From Sphingosinicella sp. CPCC 101087 (GTDB taxonomy: Bacteria; Pseudomonadota; Alphaproteobacteria; Sphingomonadales; Sphingomonadaceae): a stretch of 64,000 bases of DNA. This document shows, piece after piece, positions 1-24,477 of the stretch (within the stretch, counting starts at the first letter, position 1; every line of letters starts with the position of its first letter). The notes under the pieces are model-generated. The model saw only the letters and a list, made by a program, of their open reading frames with translations, was not told where the DNA came from and made no database searches. The position numbers and the translations under genes were made by a program. Location: NCBI RefSeq assembly GCF_004151485.1, contig NZ_SBFF01000004.1, forward strand, positions 186,001-250,000, written 5' to 3'.

Positions 1-8
1 GAAGCCGC

Positions 9-566
9 TCAGGCGAGACGCCCGTTCAACTCGATCGCGTGCGTCATGTTGAAGAAACTGGGTGAACTGGCGATCACGGCGTCGTGAATCTCTCGATACT
101 GATCGGCCGTGCCGTCGCCCTCGAGATGGACGACGAACTCGATCCGGCGGTAGCCGGGGGGCACGTCGTCAACCAGGCCGAGGAACCCGCGTAGGTCGAG
201 CTCGCCCGCGGTTTCGATCCGAATGTCGTCGAGGGCAACGCCACGGACCGCCGCCTGGGCGACATAGCCGACGGTCATGCAGGCATTGAGCGCCGACAGG
301 AGCAGCTCCTGCGGATTGGGCGCCGAATTGTTGCCGAGCAGCTGGCTCGGCTCGTCGGCGACGATCTTGAACCGGCGGGCAATCTCCTTTCCGCCGATCC
401 GGCAAGACTCGATCCGTGATTCGGAGCGGGTGCGGCCCGTCCACTGCGTCTTCACCCGAAACTCGACAAGCCCCGCCGCCGGATCCCGGCGGATGGCCTC
501 GACCGTCTCCTCGAGCGCCTGGAGATCGATTCCGTTGAGGGTCATTCGCGTGAGAGTTTCAGTCAT
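9..566 (-). CDS. OsmC-like family protein, copy 1
   Basis: 185-residue OsmC/Ohr-fold protein. The family signature is the stretch around residues 85-107 (PNPQELLLSALNACM), which carries the first conserved cysteine, Cys96. At the place where peroxidase members have the second cysteine (SxxCPV type) this protein has SSPS (167-170), so thiol peroxidase activity by the usual two-cysteine route is unlikely. It is about 65% identical, without gaps, to the product at 2836-3393. It lies 75 bp downstream of a 50-residue peptide gene on the same strand, probably one transcript; GGAG lies 10 bp before the ATG. Fold is confident. The role (hydroperoxide or thiol handling, or ligand binding) is inference. 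Confidence 0.88.
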   Translation of the reverse strand: MTETLTRMTLNGIDLQALEETVEAIRRDPAAGLVEFRVKTQWTGRTRSESRIESCRIGGKEIARRFKIVADEPSQLLGNNSAPNPQELLLSALNACMTVGYVAQAAVRGVALDDIRIETAGELDLRGFLGLVDDVPPGYRRIEFVVHLEGDGTADQYREIHDAVIASSPSFFNMTHAIELNGRLA

Positions 567-641
567 CAGAAGGATCTCCGTCGGGAGGCTCGCGAGAAAG
601 GCAGCCGGTCCAGCCTCGTGTCCGCCCTTCTTTTCTCGCGT

Positions 642-794
642 TCAGATGGCGCGCGGGCCGGCGGCCTCGGCAGGCGCAGCGGCCAGCGACGCAAGGGCAC
701 CGCTGAGCGAGGCGGATCCCACTCCGAGCAGGGCGGCGGTCGCAAGCAAGGCTCGCAGCCTCCTGCGCCTGAGATCGAGTATCTGGCCAGTCAT
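642..794 (-). CDS. Small basic-hydrophobic peptide, copy 1 (50 aa)
   Basis: 50-residue peptide with an arginine-rich N-terminus (residues 9-14), a hydrophobic alanine/leucine stretch (15-40) and a short polar tail, resembling an uncleaved signal sequence or a small inner-membrane peptide. The start at 794 is favoured over the 893 start because GGAG sits about 8 bp before it. It shares a spaced core with the peptide at 4350-4496: RLRxLL, then LGxxSA, then SGALxxLA. Both peptides precede an OsmC-like gene on the same strand, which argues that they are real genes. No known family recognised. The alternative is a Tat/Sec signal remnant. Confidence 0.62.
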   Translation of the reverse strand: MTGQILDLRRRRLRALLATAALLGVGSASLSGALASLAAAPAEAAGPRAI

Positions 795-877
795 TCGTCT
801 TCTCCCATGCGCAGGCAGCGGCGCCGCGTCGGTGCCCGATCTCGCGCGCAGGCATGTGAGCGGGCGTGGGAATGAGC

Positions 878-887
878 GTGTTAATTG
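878..887. promoter_or_regulatory. Conserved upstream element GTGTTAATTG
   Basis: GTGTTAATTG lies 83 bp upstream of the copy-1 peptide start. An almost identical 10-mer (GTGTCAATTG, 4587-4596) lies 90 bp upstream of the copy-2 peptide start in the same orientation relative to that gene. Read on the minus strand it is CAATTRACAC, which resembles a -35 box (TTRACA). A second TAATT occurs at 908-912. It also lies in the 149-bp gap to the divergent SARP-hydrolase gene, so it may be a shared operator or a promoter core. Seen directly; function inferred. Confidence 0.4.
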
Positions 888-943
888 CCGCACGAGCGGG
901 GATCGGCTAATTTCAACGGCTCGACGCTCCGTCCGGCCGCCGG

Positions 944-2530
944 ATGCGAGAGGCGATGGAGGGCGAGACGCAAGGGTCCGGCCTGGAGCTGCGCCTGCTG
1001 GGCGAGCCGTCCCTGATCAGGGGCGGACAGGCGTGTCCGCTTCCCCCCTCGCGCAAGACGCGCGCGTTGCTCGCCTTCCTTGCAACCACCGGCAAGCCGC
1101 ATCGGCGCGACCGGCTCTGCAGCCTGCTATGGGACCTGCCAGACGACCCCAGAGGCGCGTTGCGCTGGAGCCTGAGCAAGCTGCGGTCCCTGGTCGACGA
1201 GCCGGACCGGCCGCGGCTGATCACCGACGGCGAGCATGTCTCGCTCGACCTGGCCGACGTCGCCGTCGACCTCCACGCATTGCGCGCCTGCGCCTCCGGC
1301 GCCGAACCGCCCGAACAAGGCTTCGATCCGCATTGGCTCAGCCCCTTCTGCGACGGGCTCGACCTGCGGCGCTGCGAGGAGTTCCAGGCCTGGTTCGCCA
1401 CGGAGCGCGAGAATGTCCGTCAGCTTCAGATCGCCTTGCTGCGGCGGGTCGCCGAAAAGGCGCCGCCGACAGACCGTGTAGCGCCGTTGCGCGGCCTCGT
1501 CGCGCTCGATCCGCTAAACGAGGCCGTGCGGCTGCGGCTCGTCGAGGCCCTGATGAGGGCCGGGAGGTGCGGCGAGGCCGAGGAGCAGCGCAAGCTGGCG
1601 CTCGCGACGCTGGAGGAGGCCGGAATCGGTGCGCCGGCGGCGCTGCGACGACCGGTCGGAGAGCGGAATGTCGAGCCCGGCTCCGCTACCGTGCAGCACA
1701 CCTTGTTCTGCACGGCGCGCGACGGCACCGGCATCGCTTACGCCTGCGCCGGGGAGGGCCCGGCGATCGTCAAGACCGCCAACTGGCTCAACCATATCGA
1801 ATATGAATGGGAGAGCCCCATCTGGCGGCATTGGCTGCGCGAGCTCACCCGCGAACACAAGCTTCTGCGCTATGACGAGCGCGGCAACGGCCTTTCCGAC
1901 TGGAAGGTCGCCGACCTGTCGTTCGAGGCGTTCGTCAACGACCTGGAGAGCGTCGTCGACGCGGCTGGGCTTGACCGGTTCGACCTGCTCGGCATCTCGC
2001 AAGGTTGCGCCGTCTCGATCGCTTACGCGGTGCGTCATCCCCATCGGGTAAAGCGCATGGTGCTGGTCGGCGGCTATGCCGCCGGATGGGCCGTGCGCGG
2101 CGATCCGGACGAGGTCGCCCGACGCGAAGCGATGATCACGCTCACGAAAGTTGGCTGGGGACAGGATAATCCCGCCTTCCGCCAGATCTTCACCACGCTC
2201 TATTTCCCCGGCGCCTCGCACGAGCAGGCCGACTGGTTCAACGAACTGCAGCGGGTCTCCGCCTCGCCGGAAGGCGCTCAGAGGCTGCAGCGGGCGTTGA
2301 GCGAAATCGACGTCCGGCCGCTGCTCGACCGGGTCGGGGTGCCGACCTTGATCATGCACAGTCGCGGGGATTCGGTGGTGCCCTTCTCCGCCGGGCGCGG
2401 GCTCGCGTCGCGAATTCCGGGTGCCCGGTTCGTCGCGCTCGACAGCGACAATCATCTGGTGCTCGACAGCGAGCCGGCCTGGCGGGTGCTGGTCGACAAC
2501 CTGCGCGACTTCCTGCGCGACCCGGACTAG
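944..2530 (+). CDS. SARP/BTAD transcriptional activator fused to alpha/beta hydrolase
   Basis: 528-residue fusion. Residues 14-105 form an OmpR/SARP-type winged helix (SRKTRALLAFLA, then RRDRLCSLLW, then RGALRWSLSKLR). Residues 110-235 form a bacterial transcriptional activator (BTAD) helical repeat. Residues 250-528 form an alpha/beta hydrolase with nucleophile elbow G350-I-S352-Q-G354, acid Asp476 (SRGD) and His504 (SDNH), so the triad looks complete. It is probably a one-component regulator whose hydrolase part binds or cleaves a small ester or lactone-like signal; that part is inference. It lies between the two OsmC/peptide cassettes and is divergent from copy 1. Starts at 944 and 956 are both possible; the Shine-Dalgarno is weak. 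Confidence 0.85.
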   Translation: MREAMEGETQGSGLELRLLGEPSLIRGGQACPLPPSRKTRALLAFLATTGKPHRRDRLCSLLWDLPDDPRGALRWSLSKLRSLVDEPDRPRLITDGEHVSLDLADVAVDLHALRACASGAEPPEQGFDPHWLSPFCDGLDLRRCEEFQAWFATERENVRQLQIALLRRVAEKAPPTDRVAPLRGLVALDPLNEAVRLRLVEALMRAGRCGEAEEQRKLALATLEEAGIGAPAALRRPVGERNVEPGSATVQHTLFCTARDGTGIAYACAGEGPAIVKTANWLNHIEYEWESPIWRHWLRELTREHKLLRYDERGNGLSDWKVADLSFEAFVNDLESVVDAAGLDRFDLLGISQGCAVSIAYAVRHPHRVKRMVLVGGYAAGWAVRGDPDEVARREAMITLTKVGWGQDNPAFRQIFTTLYFPGASHEQADWFNELQRVSASPEGAQRLQRALSEIDVRPLLDRVGVPTLIMHSRGDSVVPFSAGRGLASRIPGARFVALDSDNHLVLDSEPAWRVLVDNLRDFLRDPD

Positions 2531-2705
2531 ATCCCGGCCTTCGATTCCGAACCGCCGCTCGGCAGCCCGCTTCGCCCGAGATTCTTCCAGCATGGGCATC
2601 GTGAAGCTCATCCTGAGCAAAGGCGGTGCCTGTCGGAGGCCTTCGCGGCCGGACGGAAATGTCCAGGGCCTCGATCAATTCGCAGAATGCCCGCGCAAGA
2701 CGGTT

Positions 2706-2736
2706 GCGGCCCCGGCGAACATGTCGCCGGGGCCGC
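2706..2736. terminator. Strong hairpin between convergent genes; rest of 2531-2835 empty
   Basis: Perfect 13-bp GC-rich inverted repeat (2706-2718 and 2724-2736) with a 5-nt loop, in the 305-bp gap between the convergent SARP-hydrolase gene and OsmC copy 2. There is no T-run on either strand, so it is either a Rho-assisted or bidirectional terminator or a transcript-stabilising hairpin. I see no supported gene in the rest of 2531-2835. Confidence 0.5.
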
Positions 2737-2835
2737 GTTCTCCCCCGGATGGGCAGGAGGGAGACGCTCGCCGTCGCGCCGCCGCGGCTCAATACTCCGA
2801 GACCGCGAGGGAGACCGATCGGCGCGAAAAGACCT

Positions 2836-3393
2836 TCATGCCAAGCGCCCGCACATCTGCACGGGCTGGGCGAGATTGAAGTAATTGGGAGAGCTGGCCA
2901 TCACCGCCTGGTGAATCTCCTGATACTGCTCGGGCGTGCCATTGCCCCGGATATGGACCGTATAATTGATCCGCCGGTAGCCTGGCGGGATGTCCTCATC
3001 GAGGCCGAGGAAGCCAGCCAGGTCGAGTTCGCCTTCGGTCTCGATGCGGCATTCCTCCAGCTTCACGCCGCGCACGGCGGCCTGGGCAACATAACCGACC
3101 ATCATGCAGGCGTTCAGCGCCGACAGCAGCAGCTCCTGCGGATTGGGCGCGGTGTCGGTGCCGAGCAGTTCGCACGGCTCGTCGGCGACGATGGTAAAGC
3201 TGCGCGGGATCGGATCCCCGGCGCAGGTGAAGGATTCAACGGTGGACTCGGAGCGGGTCTGCCCCTTCCATTCCGTCTTCACCCGGAAGGCGGCGGCCCC
3301 GCAGGCGGGGTTGCCACGGACGGTCTCGATCATCTCGCCAAGTGCGTCGAGATCGATGCCGTTGAGGGTGTTGCGGGTGAGAATGTCGGTCAT
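2836..3393 (-). CDS. OsmC-like family protein, copy 2
   Basis: 185 residues, the same length as copy 1 at 9-566 and about 65% identical to it with no gaps. It keeps the central signature and Cys96 (LNACMMVGYVAQ), and again has SSPN instead of the second catalytic cysteine. Start chosen at 3393 because it matches copy 1 and lies 23 bp after the diiron gene; a longer in-frame reading to 3945 only runs antisense through that gene's frame. It is the third gene of a peptide-diiron-OsmC operon. The fold is confident; the biochemical role is unknown. Confidence 0.88.
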   Translation of the reverse strand: MTDILTRNTLNGIDLDALGEMIETVRGNPACGAAAFRVKTEWKGQTRSESTVESFTCAGDPIPRSFTIVADEPCELLGTDTAPNPQELLLSALNACMMVGYVAQAAVRGVKLEECRIETEGELDLAGFLGLDEDIPPGYRRINYTVHIRGNGTPEQYQEIHQAVMASSPNYFNLAQPVQMCGRLA

Positions 3394-3416
3394 GGTCGGG
3401 GTCTCCGTGCTGGAGG

Positions 3417-4340
3417 TCACGAGAAGGCCGGGGCAATTTCGGCGATACGATCGCGAGCGCTGGGTGAGATTGCGGCAAGGGTGCCGGTGAATCGCGGATG
3501 GATCATGCCCGAGCCCAGATAGGTCCAGCGCAGCGCCTGGTGCTGCTGGGCCTCGAGCTCTGCCCGCACCGGCTCCGCGAGCCGGCGCCCGGCTGCCCGC
3601 TCGAAGGCGTCGAGATTGAATCTCGCCTGGGCCCTCAGGCCCTTGTCGAGAAAGGTACCGATTTCGAGATACTCGCCGATCGCCGAATCGATGCGTTCCG
3701 GGTCGCGGCCGTCCGCCAGGGCCTCGACCATCAACGTGTCGAGCTTGGCGTGCTGCGCTTCCTCCATCCAGTGATGCTTCAGGAGGCTCTTGAAGAGCGG
3801 ATCGAGGGCCGCATCGTTCCGGACGGATCCGAGATAATGGCTCTGCGTCATCCACTCGACGTGGAGGATCAAGAGTGCGACCGCGAGAGGATCGTGGCGC
3901 AGCACCTCGGCGCCGATCGTCTCCGCCGGCCCGATCGTCTCGCACGGGGTGCCGAAGCTCTCGGTGAACAGCGCATGGAAGCGCCGGAACAGATGGATAT
4001 GCTTGGCTTCCTCGCCGGCGAACTGCAGCAAGGCGCGGACCCGGACGTCATCCCCGTTCAGTTGCGGGCGGGCATGGTCCAGCACGAAGGGGAGGATGAA
4101 CTCCTCGACCAGCCCGAACAGAACGAGATATTCGTGGCCGCGTATCTGGTTGAGCAGACGGCGCTCATCCGGAGAGAGGTACGGCACGCATTCGGTGCGG
4201 GCGAGAGTCTCGGGCATGAAGCAGCGGCCGAAATCGAGGACGGCCCCCTGGGGGAGCACGTCCTCGATCTGCCAGGCCGCACGGACCGACGAGGCCAGAA
4301 CGTCCCGAAAGTTGAAGTCGTGATGCACGGCATTCTCCAC
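3417..4340 (-). CDS. AurF-like ferritin-fold diiron oxygenase
   Basis: 307-residue helical protein. The residue pattern matches the seven ligands of AurF-type diiron N-oxygenases: Glu79/80, E111-x2-H114 (EEAKH), Glu162, and H190-x3-E194-x2-H197 (HWMEEAQH). AurF enzymes oxidise aryl amines, but the wider family is diverse, so the substrate here is unknown. The start is GTG at 4340, 9 bp after the stop of the upstream 48-residue peptide gene, with no clear Shine-Dalgarno, which suggests translational coupling. The OsmC copy 2 gene follows after 23 bp. Assignment to a diiron ferritin-like fold is strong; AurF membership is by motif only. Confidence 0.72.
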   Translation of the reverse strand: MENAVHHDFNFRDVLASSVRAAWQIEDVLPQGAVLDFGRCFMPETLARTECVPYLSPDERRLLNQIRGHEYLVLFGLVEEFILPFVLDHARPQLNGDDVRVRALLQFAGEEAKHIHLFRRFHALFTESFGTPCETIGPAETIGAEVLRHDPLAVALLILHVEWMTQSHYLGSVRNDAALDPLFKSLLKHHWMEEAQHAKLDTLMVEALADGRDPERIDSAIGEYLEIGTFLDKGLRAQARFNLDAFERAAGRRLAEPVRAELEAQQHQALRWTYLGSGMIHPRFTGTLAAISPSARDRIAEIAPAFS

Positions 4341-4349
4341 GCGTCGAGT

Positions 4350-4496
4350 TCAGGCGACTTCGGGTTGGCCGGCGATCGTCTGCTGGATGGCCAGGGCTCC
4401 GAGCGCGCCGCTCATGGTCGCGGAGCTCGCTCCAAGCGCCGCCGCGGCGATCAGCAGAAAACGCAGCCGGTTCTTCTTCTTGTTGCTCGTACTCAT
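4350..4496 (-). CDS. Small basic-hydrophobic peptide, copy 2 (48 aa)
   Basis: 48-residue peptide, paralogous to the product at 642-794: a lysine/arginine-rich head (residues 6-12), a hydrophobic segment (13-36) and a short polar tail. It shares the spaced core RLRxLL, LGxxSA, SGALxxLA. An AGGAG lies 7 bp before the ATG at 4496; another in-frame ATG at 4502 is too close to it. It is the first gene of the peptide-diiron-OsmC operon, ending 9 bp before the diiron GTG. Recurrence in both cassettes supports a real gene, perhaps a membrane-tethered peptide; no family recognised. Confidence 0.62.
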   Translation of the reverse strand: MSTSNKKKNRLRFLLIAAAALGASSATMSGALGALAIQQTIAGQPEVA

Positions 4497-4586
4497 CTTC
4501 ATTCTCCTCGTGACTCGAAAGGCGCGCCACGAGGGCCGTTCTGGACGAAGCCGGTTTCAGCCTGATGCCGTCGGGGAAGCAAATGT

Positions 4587-4612
4587 GTGTCAATTGTTAC
4601 GGCGAACCGTAA
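4587..4612. promoter_or_regulatory. Conserved 10-mer plus palindrome in divergent promoter region
   Basis: GTGTCAATTG (4587-4596) repeats, with one change, the element at 878-887 upstream of the other peptide gene. It is immediately followed by a perfect inverted repeat TTACGG-CGAA-CCGTAA (4597-4612). The site lies between the copy-2 peptide operon (minus) and the hybrid kinase gene (plus). The palindrome is a plausible operator and the 10-mer a plausible -35 region for the minus operon. Which regulator binds is unknown. Confidence 0.45.
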
Positions 4613-4700: not shown

Positions 4701-6998
4701 ATGCTCAGAACAGCCGATCTCGAGCCGATCAAGGCAGCCGTCGTCAGCTCGTCGCTCGACGCGATCGTCGTCATCGACGACTCAGGCGCCGTGCTCGCCT
4801 GGAATCCGGCGGCCGAGACGCTGTTCGGCTATTCCCAGGAAGAGGCCGTTGGCCGGCCCGTCGCCGAGCTCATCGTCCCCGAGAATCTGCGCGGCGCCCA
4901 TAAGCAAGGATTCGAGGCTTATCTCGCCGGCCGCCCGGCCCGGGTGCTCGGCAAGAGGGTCGAGACGCAGGCCTCGTGCAAGGACGGCAGAATCATTCCC
5001 GTCGAGATCACCATATTGGAGATCGGCATCGACGATCGACGCATGTTCACGGCCAATATCCGCGACCGGTCCGACGATGCCGCCCGCGACGAGGAGCTCG
5101 AGGATACGCGCCGGCAGCTTCACCTCGCCGTTCAGGGCGCCGATCTGGGCGTGTGGACGTTCAACCCGACCAATGGTGCCTTGTGGTATTCGGAACGTTC
5201 CCGACAGTTGATCGGCCTCGGCCCGGACGACGTGCTCGACGTCCCGACCCTGCGGGCGAGAGTTCATCCCGACGACTGGGAGCGGCTGTCCGAGCCTTAC
5301 TATCAGGGCTTCCCGCACGAGACGCTCGCCATCGAGTATCGCGTCATCCGGCCGGACGGGGAGCTGCGCTGGATCTACGCGCTCGGCGCTGCGGAGCGGG
5401 ACGCGGCCGGGATAGCGCGCGAGGTCCATGGCATCCACCTGGACATTACGGAACGCAAGCGCGCCGAGGAGGAGCTTGAGAGTATCCGCCGTCATCTCGA
5501 GCTGGCGGTGGAAGGCGCGCAGCTCGGGGTCTGGTCGTACAATCCGGTCACCCGCTCCGCCTGGTTCTCGGATCGGTCCCGCGACCTGCTCGGGCTCAAG
5601 GACAATTTCCTCCCCGACGCGACGTCGGTGCGCGAGTGCATCCACCCCGACGACTGGGAGCGGCTGGTCGGCCCCCAATTCCGGCATTTTCCCGACCAGC
5701 CAGTCGGGATCGAATATCGCACCTTGCGGCCGGACGGCGAGGAGCGCTGGGTCTATTCACTTGGCGCGGCCGCGCTGGACGAGGCCGGAACCATGCAGTC
5801 GGTGCACGGCATTCACTTCGACATCACCGATCGCAAGCGCGCCGAGGAAGAGCTCGCCCGTTCGCGCGACGCCCTGGTCCAGTCCGAGAAACTGGCTGCG
5901 CTCGGCGCGCTGCTCGCCGGGGTCAGCCACGAGCTCAACAATCCGCTCGCCGCGATCGTGGGCCAGGCCGAGATGCTTGCCGAGGATGCCCAGGGCACGC
6001 CGATGGAGCAGCGCGCCAACCGGATCAGCGCCGCTGCCGAGCGCTGCGCACGGATCGTCCAGACCTTCCTTGCCATGGCGCGGCAGCGGGAGCGTCAGCT
6101 CGGCCAAGTCAACCTCAACGACATCATCGCTTCCGCGCTCGAGCTGACCGACTATAGCCTGCGCACCTCGGGAATCGCCGTCCGGGTCAATTTCGGCAGC
6201 GGCCTGCCCCCGGTCGAGGGCGACCGCGACCAGCTGCATCAGGTGCTCGTCAATCTCATCGTCAACGCCCAGCAGGCGATGGAGAAAGGCGAAGCCTTCG
6301 AGAAGGTGCTGACCATCCGCACCTCGGTGAACCAGGCGGGGCGAGTCCTGGTCGACGTCACCGACACCGGACCGGGCGTTCCGGAAGCGATGCGCCGACG
6401 CATCTTCGAGCCCTTCTTCACCACCAAGCGCCAAGGTCAGGGCGGCGGAGGAACGGGGATCGGGCTTTCCTTCTCGCAGGGCATCGTCGAGGCGCATGGC
6501 GGCACGATCAGCGTGCAGCCCAGCCGGCGCGGAGCCCATTTCCGGATCGAGCTTCCGGCCGCCGCCGGCCAGCCGGTCACCGTCGTGCCGCAGATGGAGG
6601 TGGTCATAGCCGAAGCGGCGCCGAGCTTGCGCCGATGCCTGATCGTGGAGGACGAGCCGGACGTCGCCGACACGCTACGCGAGCTGATCGCGCGCGAAGG
6701 GTTCGAGGTCACGGTCGCGGCGAACGGGAGCGAAGCCCTTCACGCCATCGACCGCAACGCCTTCGACGTGCTGCTGTCGGATCTGAGGATGCCGCAGCTC
6801 AGCGGCGCCGAGCTCCACGAGCGCCTGTCGGAGACCCACCCGGAGCTGGTACAGCGGATGGCCTTCGTCACCGGCGACACGATGGGCGACCGGATGGGCG
6901 AGTTCGCGCGCAGCTGCAGCCGTCCGGTGCTGGAGAAGCCTTTCACCCGCGCCGGGGTACGCGCGCTCCTCGCCGCCCTGATCAATCCCGGAGCTTGA
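4701..6998 (+). CDS. Hybrid sensor histidine kinase with three PAS domains
   Basis: 765 residues. PAS 1 at about 10-125, then two similar PAS domains (about 140-255 and 265-380) each ending in a PAC-like tail (DITERKRAEEE, DITDRKRAEEE). HisKA has the phospho-His410 in GVSHELNNPL; the ATPase domain has an N-box (VNAQQAM), DTGPGVP and GGGGTGIGLS; a C-terminal receiver (645-765) has Asp694 and Lys746. There is no membrane segment, so it is a cytoplasmic sensor. Start 4701 chosen for the purine-rich GGAAGGGG ahead of it; the upstream GTG at 4587 lies in the promoter. The response regulator starts one base after its stop. Confidence 0.92.
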   Translation: MLRTADLEPIKAAVVSSSLDAIVVIDDSGAVLAWNPAAETLFGYSQEEAVGRPVAELIVPENLRGAHKQGFEAYLAGRPARVLGKRVETQASCKDGRIIPVEITILEIGIDDRRMFTANIRDRSDDAARDEELEDTRRQLHLAVQGADLGVWTFNPTNGALWYSERSRQLIGLGPDDVLDVPTLRARVHPDDWERLSEPYYQGFPHETLAIEYRVIRPDGELRWIYALGAAERDAAGIAREVHGIHLDITERKRAEEELESIRRHLELAVEGAQLGVWSYNPVTRSAWFSDRSRDLLGLKDNFLPDATSVRECIHPDDWERLVGPQFRHFPDQPVGIEYRTLRPDGEERWVYSLGAAALDEAGTMQSVHGIHFDITDRKRAEEELARSRDALVQSEKLAALGALLAGVSHELNNPLAAIVGQAEMLAEDAQGTPMEQRANRISAAAERCARIVQTFLAMARQRERQLGQVNLNDIIASALELTDYSLRTSGIAVRVNFGSGLPPVEGDRDQLHQVLVNLIVNAQQAMEKGEAFEKVLTIRTSVNQAGRVLVDVTDTGPGVPEAMRRRIFEPFFTTKRQGQGGGGTGIGLSFSQGIVEAHGGTISVQPSRRGAHFRIELPAAAGQPVTVVPQMEVVIAEAAPSLRRCLIVEDEPDVADTLRELIAREGFEVTVAANGSEALHAIDRNAFDVLLSDLRMPQLSGAELHERLSETHPELVQRMAFVTGDTMGDRMGEFARSCSRPVLEKPFTRAGVRALLAALINPGA

Positions 6999-6999
6999 G

Positions 7000-7719
7000 A
7001 TGAGCGAAGCGGCGCACATTGTGGTGGTCGACGACGATGCCGACGTCCGCGAGACGGTCGCGGAGTATCTGCGGCGCAACGGCTTCGCAGTGAGCGAGGC
7101 CGACGGCGGCGACGCTCTGCGAGGGGTGATGAGCACCCGCCCGATCGACCTCGCGTTACTCGACATCAACATGCCCGGCGACGACGGCCTGACCCTGGCG
7201 CGCGAAATAAGGGCGTCCGGGCCGGCCGGAATCATCATGCTGACCGCGAACAATGACGATCTCGACAAGATCGTCGGGCTGGAAGTCGGCGCCGACGATT
7301 ATGTCACCAAGCCCTATAATCCGCGTGAGCTGCTGGCCCGGGTCAAGGCGGTACTGCGCCGGGCGAAGGGGGCCGGCGGCGGCAGCGCCGCGACCTTGGG
7401 CCGCGAGGTGCAGATGGGCCGGTGCCGACTGAACCTGGACACGCGCAAGTTGTTCGAGCCCGACGGCAGCGAGGTGGCGCTGACCGCGATGGAATATGAC
7501 CTGCTGCGCACCTTCGCGGAGAATCCGCGTCGGGTCCTGAGCCGCGATCAGCTGCTCGACCTTGCCCACAGCAAGGAGATGGAACCGTTCGACCGCTCCA
7601 TCGACACGCGAATCGCCCGGATCCGCCGCAAGATCGAAGCCGACCCGTCCAAGCCGGACTGCCTGCGAACGGTGCGCGGCGCCGGCTATGTCTACAATCC
7701 GGATTGTCGGACGGCTTGA
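7000..7719 (+). CDS. OmpR/PhoB-family response regulator
   Basis: 239 residues. The receiver (1-120) has the acidic cluster VVVDDDAD, phospho-Asp55 (LALLDINMPG) and Lys in VTKPYNP. The winged-helix DNA-binding domain (about 135-235) includes LTAMEYDLL and the C-terminal VRGAGYVY hairpin. It begins one base after the hybrid kinase stop (TGAGATG), so the two are translationally coupled and probably a cognate pair, with the kinase's own receiver acting as an extra relay or as feedback. Targets are not visible; the adjacent peptide-diiron-OsmC operon is a natural candidate. Confidence 0.94.
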   Translation: MSEAAHIVVVDDDADVRETVAEYLRRNGFAVSEADGGDALRGVMSTRPIDLALLDINMPGDDGLTLAREIRASGPAGIIMLTANNDDLDKIVGLEVGADDYVTKPYNPRELLARVKAVLRRAKGAGGGSAATLGREVQMGRCRLNLDTRKLFEPDGSEVALTAMEYDLLRTFAENPRRVLSRDQLLDLAHSKEMEPFDRSIDTRIARIRRKIEADPSKPDCLRTVRGAGYVYNPDCRTA

Positions 7720-7742
7720 TATCCAACGACCCACATTCTCAC

Positions 7743-7769
7743 GTCATCCCATCCCGAGCTGGGATCCAG
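7743..7769. repeat. REP-like hairpin sequence
   Basis: A GTCATCCCA...TGGGATCCAG sequence with an ATCCCA/TGGGAT inverted repeat (7746-7751, 7760-7765). It resembles the short intergenic repeats common in proteobacterial genomes and lies just after the response regulator gene, where it could also end the transcript. Only one copy was found in the window, so repeat status is inference. Confidence 0.35.
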
Positions 7770-7883
7770 GTCGGGCTCGGTCGGACCGCCGCCAGCGAGC
7801 AAGCCTGGGGCCTCGGACTTGGGTGAGATGGCTCGGTTTCCTCACGTCGAATATTGGACCATAGAAGCCGTAGAGGGGCGAAC

Positions 7884-9041
7884 GTGCTTGATCGAATTCT
7901 CTTCCTCTTCCTCCTTGTTTCGCTCTTGCCGGTGACCGCCGAAGCGAGCGCCCGTCCCCGCGCCCGCGAGGCCGGAATTGCGATCGGCATCCTCCCGACC
8001 GGCCCCTTGAACGCGATCACCGACGTCGCCGGCGTTCGCGTCGGCCACGTCACGCTGATCGAAGGCGATTCGATCCGGACCGGAGTCACCGCGATCCTGC
8101 CGCACGGCGGCAACCTCTATGCGGACAAGGTGCTCGCCGGTTTCGCGGTGGCGAACGGCTACGGCAAGTTCATGGGCTCGACCCAGATCGAGGAGCTGGG
8201 CGAGATCGAATCGCCGATCCTCCTCACCAACACGCTGAACGTGCCGGAAGCGGCCGCCGCGGCGATCGGCTGGACGCTGCGCCAGCCGGGAAACGAAGAA
8301 GTGCGATCGGTCAACGCCGTGGTCGGCGAGACCAATGACGGCTTCCTCAACGACATCCGCAAGCGTGTCGTCACGAGCGATCACGGCCTGGCCGCCATCG
8401 AGGCCGCGCGCGAAGGGCCGCTAGCCGAGGGATCGGTCGGGGCGGGGACCGGAACTGTGGCATTCGGCTGGAAGGGCGGGATCGGCACCAGCTCACGCCG
8501 CTTGCCCGAGCGGCTCGGCGGCTGGACCATCGGGGTCCTCGTCCAGGCGAATTATGGCGGCGTGCTCACCATCGACGGCGCGCGCGTCGGCGAAGCACTG
8601 GACCGCTATTTCCTGCGCGACGCCCTGCAGTCCGGATCGGGCGACGGATCGGTGATCATCGTCATCGCCACCGACGCGCCGCTCTCCGACCGCAATCTGG
8701 AGCGGCTGGCGCGCCGGTCCTTCCTCGGAATCGGCCGGACGGGATCGCCGATCACCAACGGATCGGGTGATTATGCGGTCGCTTTTTCGACTCACGAGGG
8801 CGTGCGGCGAACTTCGGCGCGGCGTGCGGCGCCGTCGAGCATCGAAGAGCTACCCAATGAAGCCGTCTCCCCGCTCTTCCAGGCAGTCGTCGAGGCCACT
8901 GAGGAGTCGGTGATCAACGCCTTGTTCGCGGCCGAGACGATGGACGGACATCAGGGCAGGATCGAAGCGCTTCCGATCGAATCGGTGGCCCGCCTCCTCG
9001 GCGGACCTGCCCGTGAGGACCCGAATACCCAATCGCCCTAG
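7884..9041 (+). CDS. Secreted P1-family (DmpA/BapA-like) aminopeptidase
   Basis: 385 residues with a signal peptide (about 1-20). P1 (S58) peptidases self-cleave to release an N-terminal serine nucleophile. The matching site is G255/S256 in GDGSVIIVIATDAP, and the downstream NGSGDY motif (about 292-297) fits the active-site region. Members cleave N-terminal D-, L- or beta-amino acids from peptides; BapA was described in sphingomonads. GTG at 7884 chosen because GAGGGG precedes it and it begins the signal peptide; the 7854 ATG adds a charged leader with no ribosome site. Specificity cannot be told from sequence. Confidence 0.9.
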   Translation: MLDRILFLFLLVSLLPVTAEASARPRAREAGIAIGILPTGPLNAITDVAGVRVGHVTLIEGDSIRTGVTAILPHGGNLYADKVLAGFAVANGYGKFMGSTQIEELGEIESPILLTNTLNVPEAAAAAIGWTLRQPGNEEVRSVNAVVGETNDGFLNDIRKRVVTSDHGLAAIEAAREGPLAEGSVGAGTGTVAFGWKGGIGTSSRRLPERLGGWTIGVLVQANYGGVLTIDGARVGEALDRYFLRDALQSGSGDGSVIIVIATDAPLSDRNLERLARRSFLGIGRTGSPITNGSGDYAVAFSTHEGVRRTSARRAAPSSIEELPNEAVSPLFQAVVEATEESVINALFAAETMDGHQGRIEALPIESVARLLGGPAREDPNTQSP

Positions 9042-9160
9042 TGCAGGCCGGACGGCTTCCGCCCCAGGACACGCGACCGCAACGTCTCCCTTCGGGTTCA
9101 TTCGTCGTTCATGCCGCGCCATGTGATAGTGTAACATCGATTTCGACCATGGAGGTGACG

Positions 9161-11035
9161 ATGCGTGCGCTGATCCTGGCTTCGATGACCGCTCTGGTGG
9201 TGACTGGCGTGCCACCCGCCCCCATCGCGCCTCTTCCCGCCCAGGCGCCCGAGCGCCGAACCGCGGCGGTCGATCCCGACGCAATCTGCGCGCCCTATAT
9301 CCAGGGCTTCCACAATCTGCATGGCGGCGGCCGCCGCCTTGTCCGGCAGCAGGCCGGAACGGTGCGGACGTCGCCCCAGCCGCATGTCATGGTGCCGACC
9401 TCCCCGCTTCCTCCGCCTCCGCCTCCGCCTCCGCCGCCGCCTCCGCCCCCGCCTCCAGCGCCCCCTCCGCCCGTCACCGGACAGGCCGCCAGGGAGGACG
9501 CATCCGACCTCACAGTGACGGGGAGCCGCGCGACGTCCGCCCCGCAATATAGCGCCCAATCCCCGACGACCGTGATCGGACCTCCTGGGCGTCCCTTCCA
9601 GCCGATGCCGCGCGAGGATCGCGAGCGCTATGCAGGCGAGGATGTCGCCCTGGTCCAGGCGGTCGCCGATGCGCCGGTGTCCACCTTCGGAGTCGATGTC
9701 GACACCGGCAGCTATGCGAATGTCCGGCGGATGCTGACCCAAGGGTCAATGCCGCCCCAGGCGGCGGTCCGCACCGAGGAGATGCTGAATTACTTCCGCT
9801 ACGATTATCCGCGCCCGGAGGATCGCAGCCGGCCGTTCAGCATCACCACCGACATGACGACGACACCGTGGAACGAGAATACGCGGCTGCTCCGCGTCGG
9901 CTTGCGCGGCTACGACCTGCCGCGTCGCGAGCGGCCGTCGGCCAACCTCGTCTTCCTGGTCGACGTGTCGGGATCCATGGCGAGCGTCGACAAGTTGCCG
10001 CTCGTGCAATGCTCGCTAGCCTTGCTCGCCGAGCGGCTGAACCCGCGCGATCGGGTGTCGATCGTCGTCTATGCCGGCGCCGCCGGCCTGGTGCTGGCGC
10101 CGACGTCGAGCCGCGGGGAGATCGTCGCTTCGCTCAAGCGGCTGATGGCGGGCGGATCGACCGCCGGCGCAGCCGGCATCCAACTGGCTTACCGGATCGC
10201 GCGCCAGAACATGATCGAGGGCGGGGTGAACCGGATCATCCTTGCCACGGACGGCGACTTCAACGTCGGCATCACCAACGACGAGACCTTGATCGACATG
10301 GTCGAGCGCGAACGCGCGGCAGGGATAACGCTGACCACTCTCGGCTTCGGCACCGGCAACTACAACGAAGCGATGATGGAGCAGATCGCCGACCACGGAA
10401 ATGGCAATTACGCCTATATCGACTCGCCGCGCGAGGCACAGAAGGTACTCGACCAGGAGCTCGCCTCGACCCTCTTCACCATCGCCCAGGACGTGAAGAT
10501 GCAGGTCGAATTCAACCCCGCCTATGTCAGCGAGTATCGACTGATCGGCTACGAGAACCGGCTGCTCGCCGAGCAGGATTTCGACAATGATGCGGTCGAT
10601 GCCGGCGACATCGGCGCCGGCCACCAAGTGACGGCACTCTACGAGCTCGTTCCGGCCGGAAGCCCGGGTTGGCTGCCCGACCGGCGCTATCCGGCAAACC
10701 GGCGCCAAGCGGCGGGAAGCGCCAATGAGGAGCTCGCGTTCCTGCGCCTCAGGTACAAGCTGCCGGGCGAAGACGAATCGCGGCGACTGATCGAGCGGCC
10801 GGTCCGGGCGGGCCTCGTCCGCAGCGCCCGGGCGCCGAACGGCGATACTGCCTTCGTTGCTGCCGTGGCGGCCTACGGCCAGCTGCTTCGCGGCGACACA
10901 AATCTCGGCACCTTCACCTTCGCCGACGTGCGCAATCTCGTCCAACGCGCAAGCATTGACGATTACTGGCGTCGCGAGTTCGTGCAGCTCACCGAACTGG
11001 CGGAGCGCCGTCGGCTCGCCGGCGGGGGAGAATGA
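9161..11035 (+). CDS. YfbK-type von Willebrand factor A protein with polyproline linker
   Basis: 624 residues: a signal peptide (about 1-28), an uninterrupted run of 16 prolines followed by A and four more (about 84-104), a short segment with DLTVTGSR recalling the start of TonB-dependent receptor plugs, a vWF N-terminal domain (about 165-250), a vWA domain with MIDAS DVSGS near 268-272 and TDGDFNVG, and a C-terminal DUF3520-like region. The architecture matches the YfbK family of exported metal-dependent adhesion proteins of unclear role. Start at 9161 set by GGAGGTGA ahead of the ATG. The polyproline may span peptidoglycan. Confidence 0.88.
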   Translation: MRALILASMTALVVTGVPPAPIAPLPAQAPERRTAAVDPDAICAPYIQGFHNLHGGGRRLVRQQAGTVRTSPQPHVMVPTSPLPPPPPPPPPPPPPPPPAPPPPVTGQAAREDASDLTVTGSRATSAPQYSAQSPTTVIGPPGRPFQPMPREDRERYAGEDVALVQAVADAPVSTFGVDVDTGSYANVRRMLTQGSMPPQAAVRTEEMLNYFRYDYPRPEDRSRPFSITTDMTTTPWNENTRLLRVGLRGYDLPRRERPSANLVFLVDVSGSMASVDKLPLVQCSLALLAERLNPRDRVSIVVYAGAAGLVLAPTSSRGEIVASLKRLMAGGSTAGAAGIQLAYRIARQNMIEGGVNRIILATDGDFNVGITNDETLIDMVERERAAGITLTTLGFGTGNYNEAMMEQIADHGNGNYAYIDSPREAQKVLDQELASTLFTIAQDVKMQVEFNPAYVSEYRLIGYENRLLAEQDFDNDAVDAGDIGAGHQVTALYELVPAGSPGWLPDRRYPANRRQAAGSANEELAFLRLRYKLPGEDESRRLIERPVRAGLVRSARAPNGDTAFVAAVAAYGQLLRGDTNLGTFTFADVRNLVQRASIDDYWRREFVQLTELAERRRLAGGGE

Positions 11036-11084
11036 GAGGACGGCCGCTTCCCCGTGGCCCGGGCCGCTCTCTCGCAGGCGGAGG

Positions 11085-11906
11085 CTAGCGGGCGGGCGGC
11101 TTTCTGAAGCGCATGACGAACTGGTCGGTGCGGCCGCGTATAGCCGGATCGAAGACGGTGACGGCGTGGTCATCGCCCGGATTGCTCAGCACGTCGCTGG
11201 ACCCGACATATTCGAAGCCGGCTTGCTCGACCTGACGCCGGACAATCTGCGGATCGATTCGGTGGAGACGTTCGGCGTCGCGCAGACCCGATCCCGGTTC
11301 GGCCGCATGATCGATGATGAACCAGGTCCCGCCGGGCTTCAGCATGTCGAATACGGCGCGGTTGAGCTGGGCCGGATCCGTCCGCCCCATGAACTCCGCC
11401 GGATAGTCATGATAGTTCTGCGAGGTCCACACCATGTCGAGCGGCTCGGGCGCCGTGAGGATCGGCGTGGGCTGCACCTGAACGGTGACGTTCGAATAGG
11501 CGTCCGAGGTTGCCATCTGCTCGAGCTCGGCGACGTTGCCGCGAGCGAAGCGCGCATAATGTTCCGGCCAGACCGCATAGACCCGGCCCTCGGGACCGAC
11601 GATCCGGCTGAAGATCCGGGTCCAGTAGCCATTGCCCGGGATGAGATCGAGGACGCGGTCGCCGGGCTTCAGGCCCGAGAGCGTGACCAGCGCGCCAGGC
11701 TTGCGACGTTCGTCGGCGCCGCGTTGCGCCGCCCGCCCCGTATCGTCGAGCGCGGCCTGGACGTAGGCCGGCACGTTGGCGGGGTCCGGAAGCGCCGGAA
11801 TCGCGGCCGCCGCCTTATTTGCGTCCGTGCCCGCCGTCTCTCCGCAGCTCGAGAGCATTGCCGCCGCGGCAAGCAAGGCCGCCGCCCATCTACCCGCTCC
11901 GGCCAT
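11085..11906 (-). CDS. Putative lipoprotein with class I methyltransferase fold
   Basis: 273 residues. The N-terminus is a lipoprotein signal with a lipobox-like LSSC (cysteine about residue 21). Residues 75-240 form a SAM-methyltransferase-like Rossmann domain: motif I region RVLDLIPGNGYWT, later DMVWTSQNYHD and LKPGGTWFIID. The glycine motif reads DLIPGNG rather than the usual DxGxGxG. An exported methyltransferase is odd because SAM is cytoplasmic, so it may be a repurposed ligand-binding fold, or the signal may be a membrane anchor. Convergent with the vWA gene; GAGGAGG precedes the start. Confidence 0.8.
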   Translation of the reverse strand: MAGAGRWAAALLAAAAMLSSCGETAGTDANKAAAAIPALPDPANVPAYVQAALDDTGRAAQRGADERRKPGALVTLSGLKPGDRVLDLIPGNGYWTRIFSRIVGPEGRVYAVWPEHYARFARGNVAELEQMATSDAYSNVTVQVQPTPILTAPEPLDMVWTSQNYHDYPAEFMGRTDPAQLNRAVFDMLKPGGTWFIIDHAAEPGSGLRDAERLHRIDPQIVRRQVEQAGFEYVGSSDVLSNPGDDHAVTVFDPAIRGRTDQFVMRFRKPPAR

Positions 11907-24292: not shown

Positions 24293-24398
24293 CAGCTATC
24301 GCCCTCCATCGGAACCCCACATAGGCACGGAGAACGGATGGTCCAGACGAGGGTTCAAAAAAGGGCGACCAGCGGCCGGTCGCAGAATAGAAATTGAC

Positions 24399-24430
24399 AA
24401 AAAAGGGCCGGCCCCGAAGGACCGGCCTTT
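24399..24430 (-). terminator. Intrinsic terminator upstream of CDC48 gene; 24293-24617 gap
   Basis: Read on the minus strand, a GC-rich stem (about 9 pairs with one bulge) with a UUCG-containing loop is followed directly by six Ts (24404-24399). On the plus strand it is followed, four bases on, by five Ts (24435-24439). It lies 107 bp upstream of the CDC48-like start on its own strand, so it is either a leader attenuator or the end of a small RNA transcribed from about 24540. The rest of the 325-bp gap holds only the LysR promoter region. Confidence 0.55.
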
Positions 24431-24477
24431 GAAGTTTTTAGGAGAGGATGCCTGAAAGGCGAGGTCCTTTTCGCGCC

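Follow-up and report, generated by a model that had tools for sequence, protein, structure and literature searches.

A conserved, apparently undescribed regulated system of genes was identified in the window, the 64,000-nt stretch analysed here (186001-250000 of its contig) of the 4.7-Mb assembly of the soil-type bacterium Sphingosinicella sp. CPCC 101087 (window positions, including those of Table 1, are in window numbering). The system is real and is made of proteins from known families: a diiron protein of the AurF/CmlI fold (DII), a one-cysteine OsmC-like protein and a small single-helix peptide, accompanied by a regulator that joins a SARP-like part to an alpha/beta-hydrolase domain. Judged by comparison, the window locus is one local copy of this system. 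Its two cassettes, peptide 1-OsmC1 (cassette 1) and peptide 2-DII-OsmC2 (cassette 2), surround one regulator gene, an arrangement seen only in the window and in L005 among the loci compared. Literature searches (OsmC with AurF, BTAD/SARP with hydrolase, the hydrolase sensors among the matches listed, and mddA) yielded no description of the system, in agreement with the original prediction of an undescribed type; neither "sphingo" nor "diiron" occurs in the main text of PMC12306174.

Co-occurrence of the module genes

A search of genome contigs with OsmC2 yielded 61 loci (L numbers). DII adjoins OsmC in 15 of them, besides the DII remnant of L065, and a hydrolase-regulator is divergent from the cassette in nine of the 15. 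This regulator is SARP-like in L005, L007, L009, L010, L011 and L013 and of the AraC-cupin type in L016, L017 and L024. The second sample, 147 genomes (G numbers) of the order, overlaps the first, the G120 and G112 loci being those of L008 and L016, respectively. DII (at least 47% identity) is present in nine of these genomes, OsmC in 11 and the hydrolase-regulator in 11. Each pair of genes shares eight genomes, which amounts to eight of the nine DII genomes for OsmC and for the regulator (Fisher 3e-10 in both cases; 6e-9 for the third pair). This count excludes genomes G032, G060, G084, G086 and G092 (g42), which have DII relatives of 30–34% identity and lack an OsmC of this kind. G057, the sole DII genome without OsmC at threshold, has a more distant OsmC adjoining DII. 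The hydrolase-regulator adjoins DII in five of the nine genomes (G000, G025, G112, G120, G141); its match is a cyclase fusion elsewhere in G010 and G017, and lies on another contig in G014. Co-occurrence over sphingomonads had been put forward with the original prediction as its check, and the genes are not scattered.

The class has 26 DII genes in 24 of 385 genomes, with OsmC within ~1 kb of 12 of them (upstream of DII in two). A DII tree of 48 rows requires nine changes in the OsmC link, four of which are forced by well-supported branches, which argues for recurrent pairing and not for one inherited neighbourhood. Module conservation is thereby shown by comparison.

Regulator and operator

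Pfam detects BTAD (28.0–29.6 bits, cut-off 22.1) and Abhydrolase_1 (74.5 bits) in the window regulator. Profile searches match its SARP-like part nearly end to end to EmbR (2fez, 7.8e-8) and AfsR (8hvr, 1.5e-4); BTAD is found at E<=0.01 in five of ten regulator members and Trans_reg_C in two. The winged helix and BTAD at the N terminus and the tandem direct-repeat operator are common to the SARP activators AfsR and PimR and to EmbR (PMC10936776, PMC5930380), whereas those proteins feature ATPase/TPR parts instead of a hydrolase and an operator period of 11 or 22 bp instead of 12 bp; the present regulators are from Proteobacteria. The name SARP-like is used because of the 12-bp period. According to the AfsR paper (PMC10936776), SARP repeats are separated by 11 or 22 bp; the 3-nt spacer of the second PimR operator (PMC5930380) indicates that SARP spacing is not absolute.

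The hydrolase triad S352-D476-H504 is invariant in 16 of 16 sequences. Fold and triad, as modelled, are those of alpha/beta-hydrolase receptors and are not specific to receptors. The matches listed in the fold search include small esterases, an enol-lactonase, an N-acyl homoserine lactone lactonase, RsbQ and D14; the best 50 listed are all within 3 Z units. The domain differs from the RsbQ and D14/KAI2 receptors in its fusion to a DNA-binding part, and many ordinary esterases score equally well or better against it. LipJ-type hydrolase-cyclase fusions (NF058673) are also distinct: the hydrolase matches at 86.6 bits, far under the 800-bit cut-off, and the LipJ output is a cyclase. Cyclase-hydrolase relatives are found in L095 and L096 (cyclase by eye), and in L080 (G103, 1159-2406) a TIR domain (TIR_2, 88.7 bits) is fused to the same alpha/beta-hydrolase. 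The partners of the hydrolase on a 23-row tree are SARP-like (13), AraC-cupin (three), OmpR-type winged helix (four), cyclase (two, by eye) and TIR (one). These labels are mixed on the hydrolase-domain tree (seven changes, minimum four), 10 of whose 20 inner branches are open. Comparison shows domain exchange, as would be expected of an input domain.

Proteins encoded near DII genes also include SARP-like ones that carry an AAA_16 ATPase (L132, L133, L134) or TPRs (L129), AraC-cupin proteins alone (L136 by Pfam; L137, L142, L143 and L144 by eye) and other winged-helix regulators (L008, L091). Locus L093 (G019, 5757-10774) carries a SARP-hydrolase without DII, adjacent to a 2-oxoglutarate-type hydroxylase-like gene (by eye), a fragment resembling the C-terminal part of LanM, and a DUF4915 gene that has the repeat operator described below.

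The operator was defined by comparing intergenic regions between SARP-like regulators and cassettes, which contain two or three copies of TTnCCACG in direct orientation, spaced at a 12-bp period. The strict pattern is present in 10 of 11 SARP-like regions (including that of L069, whose regulator is on another contig) and in none of 13 others (of which L008 and L068 are identical in sequence); in block shuffles the mean was 0.002 and the maximum 1. The lone exception is the second L005 cassette, with one repeat. With overlapping loci included, the 1.47 Mb of 145 loci contain 30 strict matches, at 13 distinct loci; 12 of these 13 sites precede SARP-like cassettes and one (L079 = L093) precedes the DUF4915 gene by another SARP-hydrolase. 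In other families of the class the operator occurs in L135 (SARP-hydrolase) and L133 (AAA_16 ATPase type), and a looser form in L134 and in L129 of the TPR type; no form was found in L132 (AAA_16 ATPase type). In L134 the regulator gene comes after DII, and even so the DII operon has the looser repeat in front of it. The operator is absent from the AraC/winged-helix regions tested (L015, L016, L017, L021, L024, L091, L127, L130, L136, L139). The window genome has the strict pattern once, at 865-884, and a reversed control pattern also once, so the evidence for the operator rests on comparison. An inverted copy, CGTnGAA, is found toward the regulator gene in eight of ten regions (shuffled mean 0.6, maximum 4), which fits self-control of the regulator.

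The situation upstream of cassette 2 is different. The original prediction had placed control of both cassettes under the regulator, and pointed to near-identical 10-mers upstream of them. Operator comparison supports control of the adjacent cassette; no TTnCCACG repeat array was found upstream of the second, which is preceded by another sequence, element A. The 10-mers (CAATTAACAC and CAATTGACAC) do exist and match at nine of ten positions, but ~0.7 such pairs are expected by chance in two 150-bp regions (an estimate assuming equal base composition), so that the pair alone proves nothing, and the first alone lies within the repeat array supported by comparison. The idea that the 10-mers form a SARP site common to both cassettes was rejected in the case of cassette 2, where element A is a different sequence. 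Element A is the same in L005 and L069 and looser in L065; its pattern has one site in its own genome and the control pattern none. The response regulator of the neighbouring kinase is a candidate binder. A palindrome, TTACGG-TTCG-CCGTAA, is present at 4597-4612 and overlaps the edge of element A. Riboswitch control was rejected: no Rfam family reaches its gathering score at any cassette examined, in the window and 28 loci. Other RNAs were seen at some distance from cassettes, namely sul1 RNA (RF03058, 77.6 bits) at 11798-11853 of L009, ~3 kb away, and a thiamine pyrophosphate switch in L005, >3 kb away.

The regulatory part of our explanation is very probable. The hydrolase domain would bind, and perhaps slowly hydrolyse, an ester- or lactone-like signal, and signal binding would alter the attached SARP-like part. 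The latter would bind the TTnCCACG direct repeats and activate the divergent operon, and the regulator would probably activate its own gene via the inverted repeat copy.

The operon products and their possible role

The system is tentatively explained, with somewhat less than balanced confidence, as a small-molecule-inducible oxidation/detoxification operon. Its first product would be a tiny membrane protein serving as anchor or modulator, and its full versions would also make the diiron oxygenase and the one-Cys OsmC. DII would oxidise small organosulfur compounds (thiols such as methanethiol, thiosulfinates) and the single cysteine of OsmC would accept the reactive sulfur product; this sulfur part is a more doubtful proposal. 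Of the signal-responsive oxidation or detoxification module claimed at the outset, conservation and an operator linking regulator and adjacent cassette have been substantiated, while its chemistry is something we infer.

The link to sulfur comes from neighbouring genes and from OsmC relatives. In each of the five DII genomes of g42, which is one genus, a DII gene is immediately followed by that of the methanethiol methyltransferase MddA; MddA is beside five of six g42 DII genes and passes the curated cut-off in L092, not in L091. MddA is within 1.3 kb of OsmC in three of the 61 loci, all above cut-off: L016 (Sphingomonas alba, with DII), L018 (a Phycisphaera metagenome-assembled genome, MAG) and L043 (Aeoliella). 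As background, 13 of 190 class genomes have MddA above cut-off anywhere. OsmC relatives of 47–49% identity are found in allicin-resistance islands, three copies in PfAR-1 of Pseudomonas fluorescens and one in P. salomonii. MddA adjacency and these OsmC kin suggest that the likeliest substrates are small reactive organosulfur compounds. The islands have other partners, without the diiron protein or a SARP-like regulator. Loci L038, L039, L047 and L061 follow the gene order osmC-sdr-tetR-dsbA-trx, as for allicin resistance (PMC7119367); the partner names were assigned by eye and from that paper, and the DsbA-like protein has no NCBIfam match. The window is not such an allicin/thiosulfinate tolerance cluster (osmC with sdr, tetR, dsbA, trx and kef): the partners from L038 gave no tblastn match (1e-3) in the window or in its 19-kb upstream locus L004. 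For context only, and not as support, OsmC of SAR11 is strongly induced under sulfur limitation according to PMC5069961.

Several points weigh against a sulfur substrate and a DII-OsmC pathway. Fourteen of the 26 class DII genes are without OsmC. AurF acts on arylamines, not sulfur, as presumably does CmlI, going by its entry name. No MddA was found in the window's genome, and in the class genomes with both (G189, G238, G258, G267) MddA and DII are on different contigs, so the sulfur link is lineage-limited; the five g42 genomes all belong to a single genus. No S-adenosylmethionine riboswitch is present at the cassettes of the window and 28 loci. Finally, the allicin study recovered no osmC transposon insertion, did not obtain osmC overexpression lines and shows no phenotype for osmC (PMC7119367).

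DII matches AurF PF11583 at 29.8 bits, barely above the cut-off of 29.6, and 18 of 19 DII members match it at E<=0.01. Fold searches place CmlI and AurF as the closest solved folds; this likeness was detected in the PDB by fold search only, as a PDB sequence search with the DII profile returned no diiron N-oxygenase, its best match being a ribonucleotide reductase (6qrz, E 0.0087). Seven metal ligands, including the third His (E79, E111, H114, E162, H190, E194, H197), are invariant in 19 of 19 sequences, and are taken to be those of AurF by spacing, not superposition. The identity of DII to the diiron N-oxygenases AurF and CmlI is 12–15%. Their fold, the homology of the SARP-like part to AfsR, and the G019 SARP-hydrolase, whose neighbours are a LanM-like fragment and a DUF4915 gene that also carries the repeat operator, would all suit secondary-metabolite tailoring, in which DII would N-oxygenate an amine like AurF/CmlI, OsmC would protect the producer and the regulator would be the pathway activator. 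However, no biosynthetic cluster was recognised by eye among open reading frames (ORFs) beside the cassettes or over the 18 kb that lie upstream, and no constant set of further enzymes was seen among the relatives laid out, which makes this alternative unlikely.

Two loci display unusual DII genes. L005 (S. terrae) has two near-identical ones (6973-7977 and 10434-11459) whose adjacent OsmC copies differ. They suggested loss of DII from window cassette 1, a candidate not retained since neither L005 gene has a closer relative than the other; a recent event within L005, by duplication or conversion, would be as likely as that loss. In the MAG L065, the last ~36 DII residues remain between peptide and OsmC (a 40-aa remnant at 3235-3357), by either deletion or an assembly fault.

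OsmC1 and OsmC2 both belong to PF02566 by profile match and are identical at 120 of 185 positions in a gap-free alignment, confirming the 65% that had been noticed. They are the sole close OsmC copies in the whole genome, a third match being weak (E 5e-4), and the family profile has 2opl as solved relative (E 6.6e-41). Family membership invites a reading as organic hydroperoxide defence, with OsmC as a classical thiol peroxidase and DII removing O2 or peroxide. OsmC/Ohr peroxidases use two-Cys chemistry and have two conserved redox Cys, whereas a single Cys (C96 of OsmC2) is invariant across 26 sequences and no second one nearly so; moreover, no OhrR-type (MarR) protein is among the regulators found. 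Hydroperoxide defence is therefore quite unlikely.

The likeness of the two peptides had been reported as a shared spaced core and goes beyond chance: their local alignment score of 81 was matched by none of 5000 shuffles and none of 5000 pattern-keeping shuffles. The start of peptide 2 at the ATG used here has a better-spaced AGGAG. Upstream of 12 of 59 DII or OsmC starts, and of none of 58 control genes, there is an ORF of 26-62 codons that runs in the same direction and has KD19 >=1.6. The comparison slightly favours the targets, for which 330 bp was searched, against at most 330 bp of intergenic DNA for the controls. Just short of the KD19 line are peptide 2 of the window (1.59) and the homologue in L005 (1.45); if both are counted, 14 of 15 cassettes of order loci with a hydrolase-regulator start with such a peptide. 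Order DII operons without an adjacent hydrolase-regulator (L008, L019, L022, L028, L069) have no leading peptide, and L015 and L021 have peptides with an AraC regulator that lacks the hydrolase. In L015 and L021 a conserved ORF of 58-65 aa, with the common end IGCQLQSRWARAT.ADPRFR, is present between peptide and OsmC. Two peptide pairs have pN/pS values of ~0.13 and ~0.28, and their other reading frames show the reverse trend; the ratio is 0.36 in a third pair and ~0.65 in the W2/L005 pair. From this substitution pattern, comparison shows the 30-50 aa peptides to be translated single-helix proteins, probably small membrane proteins. L135, outside the order and the counts, has a hydrophobic 29-aa ORF (by eye), and a DUF1127 protein occupies the peptide position in L131, L132 and L134. 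It is highly improbable that the peptides give rise to a modified signal (a ribosomally synthesized and post-translationally modified peptide or pheromone) that DII oxidises and the regulator senses, despite their leading position, also in L135, and the purifying selection in two pairs, given the lack of conservation outside the helix, the W2/L005 ratio, the replacement by DUF1127 proteins, and cassettes with peptide but no DII (window cassette 1) or DII but no peptide (the second of L005).

Layout of the window and wider meaning

The regulator gene (944-2530, +) is divergent from the peptide 1/OsmC1 pair, and the coordinates originally given for all six ORFs agree with the ORF listing (Table 1). 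The kinase downstream has its likely start at 4701, within an ORF that runs from 4587. A link of the module to this hybrid kinase had been suggested, but among the 61 loci the kinase adjoins only in L005 (Sphingosinicella terrae) and MAG L065, and its adjacency may be plain synteny. Elsewhere in the window are a 664-aa ORF with a long proline run close to its N terminus (9041-11035) and a suhB/mmgR-type small RNA (Rfam RF00519, 45.3 bits; 24391-24467).

Table 1. Features of the diiron-OsmC locus and adjoining genes.
Feature	Position	Strand	Evidence or remark
OsmC1, one-Cys OsmC-like protein	9..566	-	PF02566 53.5 bits (cut-off 27.5); its invariant Cys corresponds to C96 of OsmC2
Peptide 1, small single-helix protein, probably membrane-bound	642..794	-	KD19 1.67; resembles peptide 2
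Predicted operator of SARP-like regulator	865..884	-	Direct repeats TTAACACG-N4-TTCCCACG; comparative basis
Inverted repeat copy toward regulator gene	911..918	+	TTTCAACG
SARP-like part of regulator (winged helix + BTAD)	944..1678	+	BTAD; EmbR and AfsR profile matches
Alpha/beta-hydrolase domain of regulator	1679..2530	+	Triad S352-D476-H504
OsmC2	2836..3393	-	PF02566 61.4 bits (cut-off 27.5)
DII, AurF/CmlI-fold diiron protein	3417..4340	-	AurF PF11583 29.8 bits
Peptide 2, small single-helix protein, probably membrane-bound	4350..4496	-	KD19 1.59; homologues in L005, L065
Element A, TAACAATTGACACAC	4585..4599	-	Precedes second cassette; same element in L005, L069
Hybrid PAS histidine kinase, neighbour	4701..6998	+	Pfam PAS, HisKA, HATPase, receiver
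OmpR-type response regulator, neighbour	7000..7719	+	Pfam receiver, Trans_reg_C

A wider reading, which we consider unlikely to hold jointly in all its parts, would see here an unrecognised class of bacterial one-component receptors that use an alpha/beta-hydrolase as receptor, by the logic of D14/KAI2 and RsbQ, with SARP-like, AraC, OmpR-type, cyclase or TIR outputs. One of their main tasks in Alphaproteobacteria would be to switch on a new pathway of diiron S-oxygenase and one-Cys OsmC for volatile or reactive organosulfur compounds.

The components of the system come from known families and their combination recurs across Alphaproteobacteria. Its specific operator and target genes offer a handle on the question of transcriptional sensing by a hydrolase domain, plausibly a sensor of a new type. 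The system also provides a candidate diiron step in organosulfur handling, and a context for one-Cys OsmC proteins, including those of the allicin-resistance islands.

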